Assembly: GCF_026421305.1 (NCBI RefSeq)
Contig: NZ_JAPJBQ010000001.1
Span: forward strand, 744,001 to 808,000
DNA: 64,000 nucleotides
Direction of reading: 5' to 3'
DNA from: Dyella silvae
Lineage (GTDB): Bacteria > Pseudomonadota > Gammaproteobacteria > Xanthomonadales > Rhodanobacteraceae
A program made the position numbers and the translations under genes. Below are positions 35,723 to 44,129 of this stretch, piece after piece (the stretch's first letter is position 1; each line of letters starts with the position of its first letter). The notes under the pieces were generated by a model. It was given only the letters and a program-made list of their open reading frames with translations. It did no database searches and had not been told where the DNA came from.

Positions 35723-35756
35723 TTGAGGCGGCCGTTCGATATTGACTGGAAATAGC

Positions 35757-35800
35757 GGGGTCAGGCTCACTTTCTAAAAGGCAGAAGTGAACCTGACCCC
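35757..35800. repeat. REP-like palindrome, family A
   Basis: Arms GGGGTCAGGCTCACTT and AAGTGAACCTGACCCC, one mismatch, with a 12-base loop. It lies between the convergent VOC and KTSC genes and could end both transcripts. Confidence 0.82.
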
Positions 35801-35811
35801 GTTCTTTGTCG

Positions 35812-36024
35812 TCAGCCGACCCTGGAATACGGGTAGGCGTTCTTAATGTAGACATTGAAGAACTGCCCTTTGGAAGACGCGGCGAGGAACTCGTCATAAG
35901 TTCCTTGGGAGATGTTGTAGAACTGATACACAGTGCCGTTTGAAAACTCGACTTCCAGAGTTTCGGAGGGCGCGTCATAGCCCACCGATGAAATATTTGA
36001 CGAAGCCACCGGTTCTCGGATCAT
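35812..36024 (-). CDS. KTSC-domain small protein, last gene of SIR2-HerA operon
   Basis: A 70-residue protein that is almost wholly a KTSC domain: SSNISSVGYDAPSETLEVEFSNGTVYQFYNISQGTYDEFLAASSKGQFFNVYIKNAYPYSRV. The family (named from the C-terminal part of certain lysyl-tRNA synthetases) has no settled function. The ATG is preceded by AGGGGAG and lies 13 bases after the HerA stop, so it is almost certainly on the same transcript. That position makes it a candidate accessory or regulator of the defence pair; this is inference from context. Confidence 0.85.
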   Translation of the reverse strand: MIREPVASSNISSVGYDAPSETLEVEFSNGTVYQFYNISQGTYDEFLAASSKGQFFNVYIKNAYPYSRVG

Positions 36025-36037
36025 GCCGCTCCCCTTC

Positions 36038-37864
36038 CTATGCCTCTTCGTCCGCAACGGGCGAACGTTGAATGTTGACCTCGTTGACGACCGCCGTCGT
36101 ACTCTGACTACGCCAGGACGCCACAACGCGGTCATAGCCCTCTGCCACTCGCCGGACGGCCCATGCCTCAGTCACTTGAGGGTCGGAGCTTCGGGGAAGA
36201 TGTTCCGCACCCGGCAGTGTTATCCGACAACGAACGGGGAGTCTCGCCGCTTCGCCAGTGATGATGGCCTCTCCCGTGCGCAGTACTGGCAGGAGATCCA
36301 TGAGCCCAGCCAAGTTATCTGGAAGCGTCCCTTTCACCCGGCTTCGGTCCACTGGATTGGAAAGCCGCAACGCAATGACCGTTCCACATTGTGAGAGCAC
36401 GGTTTCGTCCACTTCGGCTGGGCGCTGGGATACGACCATGGCACCAACGCCGTATTTGCGACCCTCCTTGGCGATACGTTTAACCACCTCAACGGCATCG
36501 GTGCCCGCATCCGGGCCGAGATATCGGTGTGCTTCTTCCATGACGACCAGTAATGGCCGCTGCACGCCCCCCTCGGACTTTTCTCTGCTCCAGAAAAGAG
36601 CCTCATACACGACCCGGAGAATCGAACCGATCAGTTGAGTGAGCACCGAACTTGGTACGCCTGACAAATCCAGAATGGTGATTTGGCGGTCATGCCCGAG
36701 CCAACCCCGCAAGAGTTTGTCCAAATCGGAATGGACGCTTCCATCTAGCGCAGGCTCCCATTCACCCGGATGCAACGCAAAATCGTATCGGCGGTCCAAT
36801 AGCCTCGAACGGAGCAAGTTCAATGGCCGCCGTATTCCCTTGGCAGCGCTATTCATGAATGGGCCAACGGCACCCATCGCATGAGGTGTATATCGAGGAG
36901 CAGCGAGCGTATCGGCGCTCCCAGAGTCTTCACGAGCAGGAACATCTCGCTGAGGCCCAGTAAACGTCATTGTTTCGAAATCAATTAGTTCGTACCAAAG
37001 TTGTTTCAGACTAAACGGGACTGGGCTGTCTACCGTCAATGACTTCGGGTCAAGGCCTGCCAGCGGCTGCGCCGCAAGGCTCTTTGCCTTCAACTCAAAA
37101 ATCTTGTCCGTGAAGGCAATCTCGTGCGCGTCTGACAGTCCCCCTACTGTGAAATCCAGCAACTCCCTAGCCTCCAGGGCCCAGTAGGGCACAAATAGCG
37201 GCTCCTCCCCGGGGGCCGGCGTCGCGCTAAATACCCTTGCCAAATCGCCCAGAGCCTTGGTGTATTCGCCGTGGATATCCAGCATGAGGATTCGCGCTGC
37301 GGGTGAACCGTTGGACTCACCGTTTCGGACGATAGAGCGGAGGAGACTCGCTACCGTCGTTGACTTACCCGCTCCGGTTGAGCCAAGAATGGCTGAGTGC
37401 CGCGTGACCAAAGCGTCTAGCGATAGCCGAACGGTGACGTTCTCGGCGCTCGCCAGACTTCCTATTACCACCTGGTCATCGCCGCCGGCGCCATAAATGC
37501 GGCGCAAGTCCGATTCGGTCACCAAATGGACGGAGTCGTTGATGTTGGGGTGCTGGCTCAACCCACGCTCGAACATTCCCCCGATAGCCTCGCCCGCCAG
37601 TTGAACCTTCATCCAGCGGCCTGAATCAATGCCCTGTGCTGCAGATGTTTCCGGGGCTGCGGTCGCGCCAACCTCAGAAACAATGCCGAATAAATCCTGG
37701 TACCCCTGCGGTATACGAACGAAACTGCCGACTTGGCCAACCCGATAGGTATGTCCCTTGATGACGGCAAGGCCCGAATCCAAGGATTCGGCCAACTTGA
37801 TAGTAAGCGTCGCGCCAGTGACTGCGCTCACCACACCGAGAAAAGTAGGGTCGCTCCCGGTCAT
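36038..37864 (-). CDS. herA: HerA-family ATPase of SIR2-HerA defence pair
   Basis: Hexameric HerA/FtsK-superfamily ATPase of 608 residues. An N-terminal HAS-barrel-like region (residues 5-100) precedes the RecA-type core: Walker A GSTGAGKS at residues 161-168, Walker B LLVVMEEAH at 438-446 with Glu443/Glu444, and a late SNPVDRSRVKG segment that fits the arginine-finger region. The ATG shares a base with the SIR2 stop (TAATG). In known SIR2-HerA systems the HerA ring assembles with SIR2 and stimulates NAD+ loss and nuclease activity on phage infection. The pairing and lengths here match that architecture. The KTSC gene follows closely. Confidence 0.9.
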   Translation of the reverse strand: MTGSDPTFLGVVSAVTGATLTIKLAESLDSGLAVIKGHTYRVGQVGSFVRIPQGYQDLFGIVSEVGATAAPETSAAQGIDSGRWMKVQLAGEAIGGMFERGLSQHPNINDSVHLVTESDLRRIYGAGGDDQVVIGSLASAENVTVRLSLDALVTRHSAILGSTGAGKSTTVASLLRSIVRNGESNGSPAARILMLDIHGEYTKALGDLARVFSATPAPGEEPLFVPYWALEARELLDFTVGGLSDAHEIAFTDKIFELKAKSLAAQPLAGLDPKSLTVDSPVPFSLKQLWYELIDFETMTFTGPQRDVPAREDSGSADTLAAPRYTPHAMGAVGPFMNSAAKGIRRPLNLLRSRLLDRRYDFALHPGEWEPALDGSVHSDLDKLLRGWLGHDRQITILDLSGVPSSVLTQLIGSILRVVYEALFWSREKSEGGVQRPLLVVMEEAHRYLGPDAGTDAVEVVKRIAKEGRKYGVGAMVVSQRPAEVDETVLSQCGTVIALRLSNPVDRSRVKGTLPDNLAGLMDLLPVLRTGEAIITGEAARLPVRCRITLPGAEHLPRSSDPQVTEAWAVRRVAEGYDRVVASWRSQSTTAVVNEVNIQRSPVADEEA

Positions 37865-39123
37865 TAGCCGGCGCCCGCTGTCGGTTCAAGAGCGACGGGA
37901 TGTTGCCCGCCATCGCCCTCCGAACTGTCATTACCAACGCCATTGGTCGATGCCTTTGTGTTTGCTAAGTCAGTCGCCTGAGCTAGCGCGCAGAACCGCG
38001 CAAATTCCACAAAGTCTCCCAGCAGGAACACAGGAGGCAGGTCGTGCTTTCGTCGCCCCCAGAAACTGCGTCGGATGCTCTCCCAGTTCTTTGGTAGTTC
38101 ACCCGGCACCCATTTCCCGTGAACACCACCAATGACCGCACCATCGGAAGCATAGACGCTCAGGTTAGGTCGGTCGCCTGCGAGTTTGACTGCTGGCGCC
38201 TCTTTCTCAAGACTTTGATACTGGAAAGCAAGCACCGCGCTATTGGCATTCATCGCCAGGCTTTCGTCTAGAACGGCACAAATGTGCGCATCCCGAAATG
38301 AAAATCCAACAGCCAACAAGAGCGAGTCTGGCGTCAGCAAAAAGTTCTTGAGCCTCTCAAACAGAGCCGAATAAGGCTGTTTTTGGGTCAGGTCGTACTT
38401 GAGATGGTCCGGGTACACAAGTTCGGCGGCGTCTTTCCCCTTACCGCGAACCACCATGCCATCTTCGACACCCCATCCCAATGAACCATGGAGTTTCCAC
38501 AACCTTGTCCAACGTGGGGGTAAGTCATCACTTGCCACGGACACTGGGTCGAAGAAAGGCGTACTCCCGCCCGAGAATCCATCGAAATACGGAAGCCTCG
38601 CCCGCTCAAACGCCTCTTCGAACAGGAGGTCATAGTTGGTCGTAAACACCTCGACCGCGTGCGTTCGAACGGCGCCACCTATCCATGACACGAGTTCGGA
38701 GTACGCATTTCGCTGTTTTGGCAAGGCGACGCCGACTACTTTGCCGATACGACTACAGATTTCGTTAGCGAGCCCCTTAAATCCGTTGCTATCGAGACCG
38801 TGGACCTGCACTCCACCCAGTGCCTGATGGAGTAGACGCACACGAGACAATATTGACTCAACGTTTGCTCCAGCGCCGAGTTCCTGCTTGATGGCTTCAA
38901 TTGCAGGTTTTAGATTCGCGGGCACGTCGGCAGTGGCCAGTTCCGTCAGGTCGTCTACGCCTGGCATCAATGATTTGCCGTTTTGGTCCAGTTCCCCCTT
39001 CTCGTTCACGCGGATTGCCATCGGCGCACCTGCGCCGACAAGCAAGCCTATGCGCTTCCGTCCCTGCGAAATCACCTGTCGAAGATCCGACATGAAGCGG
39101 TCAGGATTGTGGTACGTCTCCAT
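37864..39123 (-). CDS. SIR2-domain protein, predicted NADase effector
   Basis: SIR2-fold protein of 419 residues and predicted NAD+-hydrolysing effector of the defence pair. Motifs: GLLVGAGAP at about 27-34 (NAD+ pyrophosphate loop), FTTNYDLLFE with Asn163, WKLHGSLGW with His212 as the catalytic His, and AVGFSFRDAH at 271-280. The ATG is nine bases after AAGGAG; a TTG two codons earlier is possible but too near. It overlaps HerA by one base. The C-terminal tail after about residue 385 is Gly/Ser/Thr-rich and likely disordered. No sirtuin zinc site is seen, in line with defence SIR2 proteins rather than deacetylases. Confidence 0.9.
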   Translation of the reverse strand: METYHNPDRFMSDLRQVISQGRKRIGLLVGAGAPMAIRVNEKGELDQNGKSLMPGVDDLTELATADVPANLKPAIEAIKQELGAGANVESILSRVRLLHQALGGVQVHGLDSNGFKGLANEICSRIGKVVGVALPKQRNAYSELVSWIGGAVRTHAVEVFTTNYDLLFEEAFERARLPYFDGFSGGSTPFFDPVSVASDDLPPRWTRLWKLHGSLGWGVEDGMVVRGKGKDAAELVYPDHLKYDLTQKQPYSALFERLKNFLLTPDSLLLAVGFSFRDAHICAVLDESLAMNANSAVLAFQYQSLEKEAPAVKLAGDRPNLSVYASDGAVIGGVHGKWVPGELPKNWESIRRSFWGRRKHDLPPVFLLGDFVEFARFCALAQATDLANTKASTNGVGNDSSEGDGGQHPVALEPTAGAG

Positions 39124-39177
39124 ATGCAACTGCTCCTTGCTTTTTCATCGAACTGACAAGCACTCAATCCAAGGCGA

Positions 39178-39411
39178 CTATCGCTGTACTGGATATACCA
39201 AGAGCTGCCAGTTAATGGGGCCGTTCAACGGATTGTGTTGGCGATGGTTCTGCGGCGGAAGAATGTGTCCGCCCGCAATTGCAATCTCGTCGCCACAGTT
39301 GGTGCAGCGGTAGATGCCGGGATGCGGCGCAGCGGTGCCGGGAGTGTGATTCGCATCAAAGGCTGGATCATTGATTAATTCCAGCCGGGCTCCGTACTTG
39401 TAGAGTGCCAT
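39178..39411 (-). CDS. Small zinc-ribbon-like protein, first gene of the defence operon
   Basis: A 77-residue protein with one CxxC (YRCTNCGDEIAIAGGHILPPQNHRQH) and a nearby His-rich stretch that could complete a zinc site. It matches small proteins annotated as 'protein L' in other proteobacteria, of unknown function. GGGAG precedes the ATG. It is co-directed with SIR2 and ends 54 bases before it, so it may be the promoter-proximal gene of the SIR2-HerA-KTSC unit, or an older resident gene beside which the pair inserted. Confidence 0.78.
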   Translation of the reverse strand: MALYKYGARLELINDPAFDANHTPGTAAPHPGIYRCTNCGDEIAIAGGHILPPQNHRQHNPLNGPINWQLLVYPVQR

Positions 39412-39602
39412 TGGTTGCTCTCCCCTGTATCGAGCAGCACTACGGTCTTTTTCACATCAAATGAAGATTGAACGATGATGCCTCGCCCAGAGGCAAGTCA
39501 GACGAATGGCCTAAAGGGTAGGCAACGTTTGATAGCCATCTACGGCCGAGAAACTAACGAACACTCATTCTCATAGAACTTGATGACCGAGGCTGATGAG
39601 AT

Positions 39603-39657
39603 CAAAACCCGAGTCAGAGTGCACTTTCTACTCCACCCCGCCCCCTAAAACAAAACC
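39603..39657 (+). repeat. Direct repeat, left copy (family C)
   Basis: About 55 bases sharing most positions with 43657-43711, including GTCAGAGTGCACTTTCTA and the AAAACAAAAC end. The two copies bracket about 4 kb of unknown genes. The core resembles the REP family A core. Confidence 0.8.
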
Positions 39658-39660
39658 GCG

Positions 39661-39712
39661 AAAAGGGGACGGAGGTAGTTAATTCCCGATTTTACTACCT
39701 CCGCCCCCTTTT
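39661..39712. repeat. REP-like palindrome, family B
   Basis: Arms AAAAGGGGACGGAGGTAGT and ACTACCTCCGCCCCCTTTT with one mismatch and a 14-base loop. A related palindrome lies at 41239. It sits 38 bases after the stop of the ATP-grasp-like gene (on the minus strand) and could be its terminator. Confidence 0.85.
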
Positions 39713-39750: not shown

Positions 39751-41055
39751 CTACTCCGTCGACGTGAGCACGGGCGCAAAACCTCCGCCCGGCGTTCTGA
39801 AATTGGTGGTCTGCCCCTGATACAAGCGTGCTGCGTACAGCAAGGGCTGCCCTTGATAGGCGTAGACCCGGATATCGGATTTCAGAGGTCCGTTGTCACC
39901 GCGGGTATGCCGCTCGCTGGGTGGCACTAGCTCTTGGGCGATGTACGCACTTACGCCGATGTCTTCCCACACGCGCCGGGTCAGTTTGTCGCCGCGGTAG
40001 CTTGCCTTGCTACCGAAGCCTGCGGCGGGCTTGAAAAATAGTCTGCGGCGCTGACGCCAAAGTTCGTCGCGGTTCTCGATCGTCACCAGCGTGGTTGTGG
40101 GTACCGCGGAGGTCAGCGTATCGATGACGTCGAGGGTGGCCCCGGCACGGCTCAGAAATTCCCGATCACCCAGCAGAGCGAGATTTCGTTTGTCGGCATA
40201 CAGCGCATGTGCTCGCGGGTGAGGCGTTACTACGACCTCGCCGGCCAGATAGCTCGCACGGATCGTTTCGTGCGTGGATGCGGCCAAGGGAAAATCGGTC
40301 AGACGGTTGTAGATCATGTCCACCGCCTTGCCGTGGACCCACAGGCGACCATGCCGACGCTCAAGCTCTGCGGGATCGCAGATCGTAGCGTCGATTCCGT
40401 GGCGCATGAAAAGCTCGCGGAACAGCAGGAATTCGGGATAGAGGTACTGGGTCGCAGGGGCCTCATCGACGATAGCGACCGAGACGAGCGGCCGGCTACC
40501 GGCCTGATGCATCCACTCCTGCCGCATTACCTGCAGAACGTGTTCCTCCGCCTCCTCCATATCAGTCGGGGAGGTAACGATATCGGGCATGCATGAGTGC
40601 AATGCCTGGCCGACAAGTGCGTTCAGCAGTGCGCCACCGGGATTGGTGTTGATCTCGATGAGCCGAGGACCGTCCGGCGTGATGTGAAAGTCCAGTCCAA
40701 GCATCCCACCGGGTGTTCCGGGGTCGAACTGCGCAATCTCCGGTGCCCAGGCCAACACCGCTGCCTGGTAGTCAGGCAACACCACCGTCGCGTGCACCGC
40801 AGCGACGACACGATCCAGCTCCGCCAAGTGCTCCCGGGACACATAGACGGGCAACGCAGCAAACAGATTCTGGTGCGAATCCGTAAACGTGCTTGGCAGT
40901 CCATGAGCGCCGACAGCCAACGCCAGCGCCTCATGCATCGCTTCGGGCGCTACGGCAACGCAGTGGCAGTCCCGATTAAGGGCCTCCATGGAGCGCACGT
41001 TCGCGCACATGGCGTCACAGGCAAGCGGTTGTGGAGATGACGGATCGACGATCAT
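39751..41055 (-). CDS. ATP-grasp-like protein of unknown substrate
   Basis: About 434 residues with ATP-grasp-like features. The middle GGMLGLDFHITPDGPRLIEINTNPGGALLNAL has the acidic/Asn metal pattern (EINTN), and the C-terminal LFFKPAAGFGSKASYRGDKLTRRVW, YIAQELVPPSER, LKSDIRVYAY and YQGQTTNFRTPGGGF resemble the nucleotide-binding Lys/Gly loop and closing strand of such ligases. Order of motifs is unusual. A TTG at 41088 would add eleven residues; neither start has a clear ribosome site. No partner gene identifies the substrate. It lies in the repeat-bracketed segment. Confidence 0.68.
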   Translation of the reverse strand: MIVDPSSPQPLACDAMCANVRSMEALNRDCHCVAVAPEAMHEALALAVGAHGLPSTFTDSHQNLFAALPVYVSREHLAELDRVVAAVHATVVLPDYQAAVLAWAPEIAQFDPGTPGGMLGLDFHITPDGPRLIEINTNPGGALLNALVGQALHSCMPDIVTSPTDMEEAEEHVLQVMRQEWMHQAGSRPLVSVAIVDEAPATQYLYPEFLLFRELFMRHGIDATICDPAELERRHGRLWVHGKAVDMIYNRLTDFPLAASTHETIRASYLAGEVVVTPHPRAHALYADKRNLALLGDREFLSRAGATLDVIDTLTSAVPTTTLVTIENRDELWRQRRRLFFKPAAGFGSKASYRGDKLTRRVWEDIGVSAYIAQELVPPSERHTRGDNGPLKSDIRVYAYQGQPLLYAARLYQGQTTNFRTPGGGFAPVLTSTE

Positions 41056-41238
41056 GGTGGCTAGAAGATACGGCTGGTCTCTCTTCAAGTTGCCGGTGCC
41101 ACCTTAACGAAGGACCAGATGCGATGCGTCACGTCAGGTGAATGCTTCGGTCGAATGACGATGCTACACCAAGGTCATGGCGGGCATGGACGCGAATGAC
41201 TTCTTTGCGGAAGGACCAAGCAAGACGCTCACCGAAAC

Positions 41239-41286
41239 AGGGAGCGGAGATGGTTAATTCGCGACTTAACTACCTCCGCCCCTATT
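41239..41286. repeat. REP-like palindrome, family B, reaching a stop codon
   Basis: Imperfect inverted arms around GGTTAATTCGCGACTTAAC, with ACTACCTCCGCCCC on the right, as in the element at 39661. The stop codon of the following minus-strand gene lies in its right arm. Confidence 0.75.
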
Positions 41287-42067
41287 CCGGGACTGTTCCG
41301 CTTTTACGAGCAGCGAGCTCTTCGGCGACTAGCTTGCCAAGCCCTTCCAACAATCCATCGCTATTCATGCTGTGCGCTCGCCAGTCGAAGAACGGAGAGA
41401 CCACAAGCGTTGTGATCTGGTCACGGTATATGGAACACGTCCTGCTTCTACTTCCGTCGACAATCGACTTCATCTCTTCGCGTGAGGTGTTGTAGCCAAA
41501 GGCTTCTGCAAACAAGCGGCGAAGTGTCCTGCCGGTTCCAATGATGACCGAAGGCTTATGGCGCTCCTTCAGTGATCGTAGTTCGGGAAAACGGACTTCC
41601 CTGCATAACTGAATATAGCTCTTACGCGTGGCAATCTCGGGGACGCCACCATAGGTTTGTGCCCAATCAGCTGCGCTGGTCGATCGCACAGAAAGTGGGA
41701 GAAGGTTCAATTTGAAGCTAGAGCCTTGAGGCTGATATAGGTGGTTCAGATGGTAGTTCCGCCAACCATCAACGCTCGCCGACCGCGTTGGGTCGTCTTG
41801 CACACTCTCAATGGCCGTCATGAGCTTGGCCACTTTTTGATGATACGGCCACGACTTCCATTCCTGTCCCGGCTTTTCGTGATCTTGTTTGAATTGAGGG
41901 GTCCAATAAGACATTACCGACTCAGGTTCGAGCTGAGAGACGTCGAACGCCTTGTCGCCATCATCCGGGCCGCCCCCATGTTCAATACCGCATACCCACA
42001 CCTTTGCGTCGGGGTTGCCGCCATCATGCCCGGCATAGGATTTCAAGTAGGCCTGCAAATTGCTCAT
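41282..42067 (-). CDS. Hypothetical protein, possible uracil-DNA-glycosylase fold
   Basis: A 261-residue cytosolic protein I do not recognise by name. The opening AKVWVCGIEHGGGPDDGDK could be the motif-A loop of the UDG superfamily, RHKPSVIIGTGRTLRRLFAEAF the following strand-helix, and VSPFFDWRAHSMNSDGLLEGLGKLVAEEL the terminal loop and helix. The catalytic residues of known UDG families are not all present, so this is a weak fold guess. GAGGGGG precedes the ATG. The gene 43 bases upstream (42111) is co-directed and may share the transcript. Confidence 0.65.
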   Translation of the reverse strand: MSNLQAYLKSYAGHDGGNPDAKVWVCGIEHGGGPDDGDKAFDVSQLEPESVMSYWTPQFKQDHEKPGQEWKSWPYHQKVAKLMTAIESVQDDPTRSASVDGWRNYHLNHLYQPQGSSFKLNLLPLSVRSTSAADWAQTYGGVPEIATRKSYIQLCREVRFPELRSLKERHKPSVIIGTGRTLRRLFAEAFGYNTSREEMKSIVDGSRSRTCSIYRDQITTLVVSPFFDWRAHSMNSDGLLEGLGKLVAEELAARKSGTVPE

Positions 42068-42110
42068 AGACCCCCTCACTTGCCAACACTCCAGACCTTG
42101 AAGTTCGGGC

Positions 42111-42653
42111 TTAACTGCATTTGGTGATCCTTGGCGTACCAGTCTCGAGCGGAAACGGGTTTGGCCACCCGGCCACTGCCAACACTTGCTCTAAGTCAAA
42201 GCCTTCGTGGTCGCGGCATTGCTTGTCATACACGCTAGCGCACCGCGCATTCTGCTCCTCGGTATCCAAGAACGGACGCGTCAGAGCGTCGAGCATATCC
42301 TCGAAATACTTCGAGACGGAAGCTTGCCCTTCAAATCGATAGGCTGGCCATTGGCTTTCGTCCGCTGGTACGCCGACGAGGTCGCACACCCTGTCCCAGC
42401 CAAGCTTCTTTGCAGTGCACACGCTTGAAGTGAGCAACACGGTGTTCTCCGCGCTGTAGCCCTCGAGGCGGTACAGCCGGCTCAATGCGTAGGCCGACCG
42501 CACGCTTAGGGGCGGCGTGTCTGTCGGAACCCCTGCAATCCACCTTCGCATTTCACCGGTGCCAATGGCAGGGTGCACGTGCCACCTTCGCAGGTTCGCC
42601 CACCTGAAGTGGTGAATCTGTTGCTGCACCCACGGCCGGCGATTTGGTTTCAC
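42111..42653 (-). CDS. Hypothetical protein of accessory segment
   Basis: A 180-residue soluble protein of unknown function from a GTG start. It is rich in Trp and Arg at the N-terminus (VQQQIHHFRWANLRRWHVHPAIGTGEMRRWIAG), with TVLLTSSVCTAKKLGWDRVCDLVGVP in the middle and four cysteines spread over the C-terminal half. An internal ATG at MRRWIAGVPTD is possible. It lies directly before the possible UDG-fold gene on the same strand. No domain recognised. Confidence 0.55.
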   Translation of the reverse strand: MKPNRRPWVQQQIHHFRWANLRRWHVHPAIGTGEMRRWIAGVPTDTPPLSVRSAYALSRLYRLEGYSAENTVLLTSSVCTAKKLGWDRVCDLVGVPADESQWPAYRFEGQASVSKYFEDMLDALTRPFLDTEEQNARCASVYDKQCRDHEGFDLEQVLAVAGWPNPFPLETGTPRITKCS

Positions 42654-43631: not shown

Positions 43632-43656
43632 CGCCACTCCATAGCCAATGATCGAG

Positions 43657-43711
43657 CAAAACCCGGGTCAGAGTGCACTTTCTACCCCATCCCCTCTTCC
43701 AAAACAAAACG
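43657..43711 (+). repeat. Direct repeat, right copy (family C)
   Basis: Partner of 39603-39657 in the same orientation, sharing GTCAGAGTGCACTTTCTA and AAAACAAAAC. It lies 26 bases upstream of the secreted-protein gene. Confidence 0.8.
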
Positions 43712-43737: not shown

Positions 43738-43880
43738 GACGGAGAGAGTGGGATTGTTGGGTGCATCCATGCACCCAACCCTTCCGCGCTTCGCGCTACA
43801 GGGCCAGCCTGCGGCTGTCCGAATTCGTTCCAGACGAATTCGTCGAACCAGTGGGTTCGTCCACACCACTCTCTCCGCCA
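43738..43880. repeat. Palindrome cluster with partial tRNA-Ser copies
   Basis: CGGAGAGAGTGGGATT near 43739 repeats the 3' end of tRNA-Ser in the same orientation as the gene's plus-strand view. GTGGGTTCG...CCACTCTCTCCGCCA at 43851-43880 is an inverted, slightly altered copy of the tRNA T-arm, acceptor and CCA. Between them are smaller palindromes at 43756-43779 (GTTGGGTGCAT arms) and 43821-43841 (GAATTCGT arms). No gene is present. Confidence 0.75.
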
Positions 43881-43934
43881 GATACGCAAAACGCCCCACT
43901 AGGGGGCGTTTTGCGTATCTGGCGGAGAGAGTGG
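43866..43934 (-). terminator. 32-bp perfect hairpin at tRNA-Ser 3' end
   Basis: Arms 43866-43897 and 43903-43934 are exact reverse complements with a five-base loop. The inner part (ACGCAAAACGCCCC) is a plausible terminator for tRNA-Ser; the outer half of the right arm is the tRNA acceptor itself, so the left arm contains an inverted copy of it. Confidence 0.8.
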
Positions 43935-44009
43935 GATTCGAACCCACGGTAGGCTTACACCTACGGCAGTTTTCAAGACTGCTGCCTTAAACCGCTCGGC
44001 CATCTCTCC
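43920..44009 (-). tRNA. tRNA-Ser (UGA anticodon)
   Basis: Read on the minus strand it starts GGAGAGATGGCCGAGCGG and ends GTTCGAATCCCACTCTCTCC-G-CCA, with CCA encoded. Acceptor GGAGAGA pairs with TCTCTCC; the long variable arm (CCGTAGGTGTAAGCCTACCG) marks a class II tRNA, and the loop CTTGAAA gives anticodon UGA at 43973-43975. It decodes UCA/UCG codons. serS lies about 500 bases upstream on the same strand. Confidence 0.97.
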
Positions 44010-44129
44010 GGGTTTGGTTGTTCCAGCCATTGAAAGGCGCTGGATGACCAGCCTTGCGGCTGTTTTGAAGCTCTTCCCGCCTTCGCAGGAATGACGAGCA
44101 AGGAGCTCGCCATTGGGGTCGTCATCCTA

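Follow-up and report, generated by a model that had tools for sequence, protein, structure and literature searches.

Which of the genes gathered around a SIR2-HerA pair belong to the defence system? The question arises at a locus of Dyella silvae, in a window of 64,000 nucleotides (the whole stretch of DNA analysed here), where four same-strand genes at 35812-39411(-) encode a CxxC protein, a SIR2 protein, HerA and a KTSC-domain protein. Systems of the SIR2-HerA kind form a 12:6 complex, deplete NAD+ and protect against phages. A first-pass annotation had described four co-directed, tightly spaced genes, all of which are indeed present, and had read them as a four-gene form of this system with a zinc-ribbon gene in front and a KTSC gene behind.

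Layout and family assignment of the operon

The adjacency of SIR2 and HerA and their one-base overlap (TAATG at 37866-37862) are as first annotated, and 13 bp separate the HerA stop from the KTSC ATG. This ATG, at 36024, has GGGGAG upstream and agrees with the start of the homologues. A KTSC start at 36135 was rejected, the longer frame being an open frame inside HerA. Scans for sigma-70 promoters and terminators gave sites not above shuffle level, and the palindrome at the KTSC stop is absent from the sites of the terminator scan. The operon sits on a tRNA-Ser genomic island.

Table 1. Coordinates of the operon genes and flanking palindromes in the window
Feature	Position	Strand	Details
Palindrome at KTSC stop	35743..35814		30-nt arms, 80% complementary; possible transcript end
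KTSC-domain protein, conserved third gene	35812..36024	-	70 aa
HerA hexameric ATPase	36038..37864	-	608 aa; Walker A GSTGAGKS, Walker B VVMEEAH
SIR2-family NADase-like effector	37864..39129	-	421 aa from TTG 39129, 419 aa from ATG 39123
CxxC protein ('protein L' family), apparent passenger	39178..39411	-	77 aa
Palindrome 5' of operon	39661..39712		25-nt arms, 88% complementary

Pfam assigns SIR2 to SIR2_2 (66 bits), HerA to HerA DUF87 (120 bits) and the KTSC gene to KTSC (PF13619; 82.7 bits, curated cut-off 25). The annotated defence-type pair is also recognised by PADLOC, whose SIR2 model PDLC04094 (531 bits) and HerA model PDLC04105 (529 bits) match adjacent genes, as its SIR2-HerA system demands; PADLOC has no model for the KTSC gene (0 matches). 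The residues expected of this system, N and H in SIR2 and Walker A/B in HerA, are all in place. The catalytic residues of SIR2 are, as had been noted, Asn163 and His212 when counted from the ATG start (165 and 214 from TTG), and they are kept in 91/91 aligned clade members, as are K167 and E443/E444 of HerA. Judging by these sequence features, the locus is an anti-phage operon belonging to the known SIR2-HerA type.

The flanking CxxC and KTSC genes

That the zinc-ribbon-like gene, SIR2, HerA and KTSC make up one four-gene defence system could be argued from the position of the CxxC gene, on the same strand and ending 48-54 bp before the SIR2 start, but its distribution makes this reading very improbable. 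The gene was found in 0/78 SIR2-fetched genome loci and in 0/101 loci of a non-redundant set whose SIR2 and HerA both fall in the clade of the window; in three of these (L041, L113, L274) the DNA 5' of SIR2 is <400 bp, too short to tell. The 369 genomes of the class held one other match to the protein, a weak one; its relatives appear in 164 plasmid records and in 6 records of a phage collection, and four plasmid regions carrying a relative (two tiny Klebsiella plasmids, two IncF) showed no SIR2-HerA in the stretch. On this distribution we rejected the CxxC gene as a component of the system; it looks like a stray passenger. The name given to it is likewise weak, because no Pfam model is significant (best E 0.1) and the protein has one CxxC pair, not four cysteines. 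The first-pass annotation had itself named absence from nearly all homologous loci as the sign that the four-gene form was wrong, and by this comparison of gene order its zinc-ribbon part fell, whereas its KTSC part stood.

In one large SIR2-HerA branch, the KTSC gene turns out to be a regular third member. It lies directly 3' of HerA in 71 of the 73 HerA-bearing genome loci fetched by SIR2, the two exceptions having distant HerAs (296 and 361 bits). On plasmids it follows HerA in 7/8 of the first regions fetched; in the eighth, L085, HerA is truncated and an IS481 transposase lies nearby. On viral contigs fetched by HerA it does so in 7/7 (n=5 once identical HerA frames are removed); it was also found with HerA in Aeromonas, Bradyrhizobium, the archaeal Natrinema and Paracoccus (plasmid set). 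SIR2-HerA loci outside the KTSC clade carry it in 0/8 cases. The HerA-KTSC gap ranges from -14 to 30 bp, with a median of 5 and both genes on the same strand, in 91/91 unfused loci, a count that left out five re-fetched loci. Moreover, KTSC is fused to HerA in five non-redundant loci; four of these fusions each adjoin unfused sisters, and the fifth is L274. KTSC is thus the third component of one SIR2-HerA clade, given its adjacency to HerA in the genome loci, its fusions to HerA and the fusion in a solved complex (see below).

Its inheritance follows the same line. All loci with KTSC form one clade (support 0.764) in a SIR2 tree with 116 tips, rooted at its midpoint; within that clade the members without KTSC are four contig ends and L085, and the 10 tips outside it all lack KTSC. 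Mirror-tree distances of KTSC correlate with those of HerA (r 0.63) and SIR2 (0.615), values reached in 0/2000 permutations; L073, L012 and L085 were left out, together with the duplicate or near-identical L135, L234, L235, L237, L240, L016, L023 and L037. The domain is not exclusive to SIR2-HerA: 88/120 KTSC matches in one locus set have no HerA in the locus, and KTSC genes from the operons do not form one clade within the domain family (label changes 15, vs at least 44 in shuffles). Loci fetched by KTSC are included in part of the trees and spacing counts. The 101-locus set requires SIR2 at 250 bits or more and HerA at 500 bits or more, excludes interrupted or cut operons (e.g. L066, L073), seven loci whose HerA frame is identical to another, L282 and the window's own locus, L001, and, like an earlier set of 96, mixes SIR2- and HerA-fetched loci with KTSC-fetched ones (L281 being nuclease-fetched), so the constant presence of KTSC is not argued from either set.

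Structure and possible role of KTSC

The predicted structure of the window KTSC (pLDDT 96) has the KTSC fold, with TM 0.96 to 7x8c, and TM of about 0.9 to 8wof_B and to 3/4 of the listed 8wld chains. The HerA of 8wiv and 8wld carries KTSC at residues 628-696 (70 bits), and in 8wld and 8wof, deposited as 'SIR2/HerA antiphage complex', this domain is resolved, fused to HerA. All 13 Foldseek matches at E <= 0.001 are KTSC proteins or KTSC-bearing HerA chains; 8wod and 8woc, whose HerA chains in the Foldseek list have 354-560 residues, give no KTSC-domain match at this threshold, and KTSC is therefore not ordered in every state.

By analogy with these solved relatives, we consider it probable that the locus encodes a three-component, NAD+-depleting SIR2-HerA-KTSC anti-phage system in which KTSC gates or stabilises HerA. 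SIR2 would form a double-ring dodecamer on the HerA hexamer and, upon a phage signal, the complex would destroy NAD+, leaving the infected cell unable to produce phage. KTSC would be a small subunit that binds HerA on its C-terminal side, the place at which fused relatives carry it after a short linker; it may stabilise the HerA ring or, as the topology suggests, gate it.

Two other roles for KTSC deserve consideration. It may be a nucleic-acid sensor that binds phage DNA (or RNA) as it enters or leaves the HerA pore and triggers SIR2, and indeed the accessible text of PMC9503650 terms KTSC DNA-binding, that of PMC7824862 terms it RNA-binding, and HerA belongs to a DNA-translocating family. 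However, the Foldseek matches are KTSC only and give no hint of nucleic-acid binding, and acidity marks the KTSC proteins of the operons: -3 in the window and, over the 70 of alignment A1, a median of -3 with a range of -9 to 3 (a count without the duplicate or near-identical loci named above and without L277 and L279). Acidic E24 and E26 also help to separate operon from orphan KTSC (81/79% vs 21/18%). Because of this acidity, KTSC is more likely to contact protein than DNA, and we regard the sensor role as rather unlikely. A little less probable still is an antitoxin-like brake that holds SIR2-HerA off until infection. Its small size, its position as last of three genes and its near-constant presence in the clade would suit such a brake, but the fusions bind KTSC permanently to HerA, and a domain ordered in the assembled SIR2/HerA complex is ill-suited to a labile antitoxin, although still compatible with a built-in inhibitory domain.

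The remaining alternative, which we find unlikely, concerns the effector: SIR2 may ADP-ribosylate DNA or protein instead of emptying the NAD+ pool, as the available part of PMC9503650 proposes for HerA-linked sirtuins. One archaeal operon, in which KTSC is followed by a two-piece ADP-ribosylglycohydrolase, would agree with this, yet characterised SIR2-HerA systems deplete NAD+ and require the N and H residues (PMC11559045, in the portion available), the same residues that are kept here. In addition, the argument of PMC9503650 builds on mutual exclusion of sirtuin and endoDNase, whereas a PD-(D/E)XK-like nuclease gene adjoins the sirtuin in 21/101 of our non-redundant loci, although the endoDNase family may differ. 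If this nuclease is active, the variant would be at odds with that proposal. These SIR2-HerA-KTSC-PD-(D/E)XK loci, the Sphingobacterium operon L075 being an example, share their first three genes with the window, which lacks such a nuclease by profile search. The profile also found the nuclease of L120, missed in the 96-locus count; the tree test gave 10 nuclease changes, a number that may be too high, as L016, L023 and L120 were labelled nuclease-less although the profile finds one. It is tempting to speculate, with slightly more doubt than belief, that a large cross-domain SIR2-HerA branch is a three-subunit machine with KTSC obligatory, that part of it adds the nuclease to join NAD+ depletion and DNA cleavage on one HerA motor, and that catalogues with SIR2 and HerA alone describe incomplete systems.

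Comparison with known systems

The E. coli SIR2-HerA or Nezha systems (8j4u, 8su9, 8uaf; NF042942/NF042943; V. cholerae Nezha in the available part of PMC11559045) have the same SIR2 and HerA pair with the catalytic N and H but are a different clade, the window SIR2 scoring 47.5 bits against the Nezha equivalog NCBIfam NF042942, whose curated cut-off is 500. In our sample, which does not take in the E. coli SIR2-HerA locus itself, only L214 of the 8 KTSC-less loci outside the clade passes that cut-off. PMC9503650 also mentions, in its accessible part, an unpublished observation of HerA and KTSC with an endoDNase in place of the sirtuin; the HerA and KTSC neighbours are common to the window, whose effector is a sirtuin. 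We found no such sirtuin-free loci around 112 KTSC places (67/68 and 20/21 non-own matches, 18/36 other matches and 7/10 of a fourth search), except at the contig ends L222 and L223. HerA-DUF4297 (9c1m, 8xav, 8ziq), where HerA carries an effector ring (PMC12198126, available portion), has the HerA fold in common (24-27% identical to our model of a fused HerA) but another effector, and none of its chains gives a KTSC-domain match at E <= 0.001.

The SIR2/HerA antiphage complex resembles the window in all three parts: the solved relatives closest to its SIR2 and HerA are 8w9l (230 bits) and 8wiv (569 bits), and KTSC matches at 70 bits. We take 8wld, 8woc, 8wod and 8wof, with 8w9l and 8wiv, to come most probably from Liao et al. 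2024 NAR 52:11336. KTSC accounts for the extra C-terminal domain of HerA in 8wiv and 8wld. A widely catalogued defence system thereby gains a conserved, testable third component, and heterologous tests of SIR2-HerA from the KTSC branch should carry the KTSC gene, which in the solved complex is fused to HerA and in the window is a separate gene of 70 aa.

Gene content of the operon and its third gene

All four genes of the region point the same way. SIR2 and HerA are joined by a one-base overlap, 13 bp separate HerA from KTSC, and 48-54 bp lie between the stop of the CxxC gene and the start of SIR2.

Genes of the operon region (35812-39411 of the window) and the basis of each assignment
Gene	Position	Strand	Length	Basis
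CxxC protein	39178-39411	-	77 aa	Gene calling on sequence
SIR2 protein	37864-39129	-	421 aa	Pfam SIR2_2; strong PADLOC SIR2 model
HerA	36038-37864	-	608 aa	Pfam DUF87/HerA; strong PADLOC HerA model
KTSC protein	35812-36024	-	70 aa	Pfam KTSC

The first-pass annotation had described an adjacent, overlapping SIR2-HerA pair with its catalytic and Walker residues kept, and this is confirmed by gene calls, Pfam and PADLOC. The SIR2 catalytic N and H and the HerA Walker residues are invariant in 91 aligned members of the clade, by which we mean the SIR2-HerA branch whose loci carry KTSC. The best PADLOC SIR2 model was PDLC04093 or PDLC04094 for the window protein and the four other clade members tested, and another model for the two tested proteins from outside the clade.

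The same annotation had assigned the KTSC gene to the pair, and our genome survey bears this out. With the SIR2 protein as query against one genome per species we obtained 78 loci, and KTSC lies directly behind HerA in 71 of the 73 that bear HerA. The two exceptions are L077 and L079, whose HerAs are distant (296 and 361 bits); the others score at least 690 bits, interrupted L066 and L073 aside. Genes are interrupted in three of the 71 KTSC-bearing loci (L006, L066, L073), and the KTSC frame is short in L012. Four of the five loci without HerA (L047, L067, L074, L076) stop at a contig end, and the fifth, L080, is a weak SIR2 match.

SIR2 relatives are found in 374 plasmid records, and KTSC is present in seven of the eight regions examined from the best 10 of these; the eighth, L085, has a truncated HerA and an IS481 transposase nearby. 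Among further plasmid records, those of Aeromonas, Bradyrhizobium and the haloarchaeon Natrinema carry KTSC as well, and a Listeria SIR2-HerA (26% identity) does not. All seven viral contigs fetched by HerA have SIR2 and KTSC, two being repeats with an identical HerA frame. As a control, we took NF042942, the NCBIfam model of characterised Nezha-type SIR2, which matched 15 places; seven were examined, and the remaining eight include the window and a further fragment of the L218 match. Its five best matches (L214-L218, only L214 passing the cut-off) are SIR2-HerA loci, all without KTSC; the two weaker matches examined are L219, a KTSC-bearing member of the present clade, and L220, which is without HerA. 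A pooled recount of 101 non-redundant loci with SIR2 and a clade HerA, excluding the window and including some loci fetched by KTSC, finds KTSC adjacent in 95, fused in five and absent in one (L085).

KTSC itself is scarce, with a single copy in this genome. In the genus 1 of 20 genomes and in the family 20 of 233 have a match above cut-off, and at phylum level the count is 51 of 398; 88 of 120 KTSC matches have no HerA in the locus. One lone divergent KTSC without HerA (L185:3003-3362), which by eye resembles that of a Rhizobium operon (L082), is perhaps the remnant of a lost operon.

Co-inheritance and the fourth gene

When 116 SIR2 proteins are placed on a midpoint-rooted tree, the KTSC loci fall together in a single clade (support 0.764), inside which only four contig-end loci and L085 are KTSC-less, and all ten tips outside it are without KTSC. 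Across 91 unfused loci, KTSC shares its strand with HerA at a gap of -14 to 30 bp (median 5). The two occupy a single frame in L004, L008, L040 and L044, each with unfused sisters beside it on the SIR2 tree, and a fifth fusion is found in the viral locus L274. Pairwise KTSC distances correlate with those of HerA (r 0.63) and SIR2 (0.615), with none of 2000 permutations as high, and HerA and SIR2 distances correlate at 0.94, values to which common host ancestry can contribute.

The proposal that the CxxC gene, then called a zinc ribbon, belongs to a four-gene form of the operon is largely refuted by the gene-order search, which finds no homologue of it in 101 non-redundant homologous loci, although three of them (L041, L113, L274) have less than 400 bp upstream of SIR2, too little to show absence. 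The gene has one other match, a weak one, in 369 class genomes, and relatives in 164 plasmid records. SIR2-HerA is absent from all four plasmid regions fetched for carrying such a relative (two on tiny Klebsiella plasmids, two on IncF plasmids; it is annotated there as 'protein L', as hypothetical or not at all), and the relative is in no other fetched locus checked alongside. The CxxC gene looks like a mobile orphan.

Elsewhere, the conserved fourth gene is a putative PD-(D/E)XK-like nuclease, judged from its sequence, in a four-gene SIR2-HerA-KTSC-nuclease variant. Neighbour clustering over 96 operons identified a protein of ~345 aa, encoded downstream of KTSC and co-directed with it, in 17 loci (L015, L018, L022, L025, L027, L032, L033, L035, L038, L040, L046, L054, L062, L071, L075, L138, L139), 14 of them from Bacteroidota; the gene is also present in L016, L023, L073, L120, L281 and L282, and absent from the window. 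It follows KTSC at a median gap of 7 bp, except in L046, where it lies ~2.2 kb further on. Pfam PDDEXK_15 matches three of the 17 at E <= 0.01 (best E 3.4e-7), one member scoring 24.4, under the curated cut-off of 27. Residues D135, E151 and K153 (L032 open-frame numbering) are invariant in all 17, an arrangement that we take to fit the pattern expected of PD-(D/E)XK nucleases. PADLOC and PDB searches with this protein gave no match.

The nuclease profile has 23 matches in 281 loci, every one in a locus of the SIR2-HerA-KTSC system, with L098 and L120 being one place and L073 interrupted. For most of these loci the query had been SIR2, HerA or KTSC, and exclusivity was tested only by two nuclease-led searches. 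These gave a plasmid record and a viral contig, and in each the nuclease is preceded by SIR2-HerA-KTSC. The gene occurs in 21 of the 101 non-redundant loci and requires 10 changes on the SIR2 tree, against a shuffle mean of 16.1 and minimum of 10; its clustering is therefore only moderate.

A gene of one family, assigned to DUF2130 by a Pfam match of the L008 member, has the strand of the operon and stands no more than 2.5 kb from it in nine cases (L008, L014, L030, L078, L111, L112, L131, L132, L259), upstream in six. On a Natrinema zhouii plasmid (L260:7969-9061), the archaeal SIR2-HerA-KTSC operon has behind it a gene for an ADP-ribosylglycohydrolase, which the annotation splits in two.

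Genomic island at tRNA-Ser(TGA)

The island that carries the operon adjoins tRNA-Ser(TGA) and serS. This tRNA is common to all 12 relatives examined, out of 19 others in the genus, and in the 18-kb stretches compared their similarity to the window stops somewhere in 43740-44124, at the tRNA or next to it. The one exception is an isolated 72% match in L263; the listing covers matches of 150 bp or more. GC is ~0.55 from 38 kb to the tRNA, with a value of 0.62 at 40-41 kb, and 0.64-0.68 on the far side. The site resembles a hotspot for integration in this genus.

Some relatives have the 43746-43938 stretch in additional copies, of which L264 has several. A 57-bp direct repeat (84%) lies at two points of the island, 39600-39656 and 43654-43710, and the repeat pattern at 43665 has one exact occurrence in the whole genome. 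Three proteins are encoded between operon and tRNA (39751-42653), one of them weakly ATP-grasp-like (E 0.003, under the cut-off) and two with no Pfam family; the first has a 73% copy elsewhere in one of the 19 genus relatives (G048), with no SIR2-HerA within the 11 kb examined.

Solved complexes and the proposed role of KTSC

The closest solved SIR2 is PDB entry 8w9l (230 bits) and the closest solved HerA is 8wiv (569 bits, 696 aa), whose final 69 residues are a KTSC domain scoring 70 bits to the window KTSC. The AlphaFold2 model of the latter (pLDDT 96) matches two solved KTSC proteins first and then the HerA chains of 8wof, 8wld, 8wiv and 8wj3 (TM 0.74-0.91), entitled 'Cryo-EM structure of SIR2/HerA complex', 'SIR2/HerA antiphage complex' or 'a bacterial protein'; the KTSC domain is therefore ordered within a solved complex. 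The model of the natural fusion L004 (pLDDT 90.9, weaker at the linker near residue 600) differs by 8.4-8.6 A from the longest 8wld chains, as against 3.1-3.7 A from the KTSC-less chains of 8wod and 8woc, which points to a KTSC position that may be flexible against HerA, or missed by a single-chain model.

In fused forms KTSC is attached to the C-terminus of HerA, and the KTSC subunit would most likely stabilise or gate the HerA ring. Its acidity and the operon-specific E24/E26 suggest that it contacts protein rather than DNA.

According to PMC11559045, the characterised SIR2-HerA systems are 12:6 complexes that deplete NAD+, and changing the N or H of SIR2, or deleting HerA, abolishes protection in V. 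cholerae. The N and H residues needed there are also kept in the SIR2 of the window.
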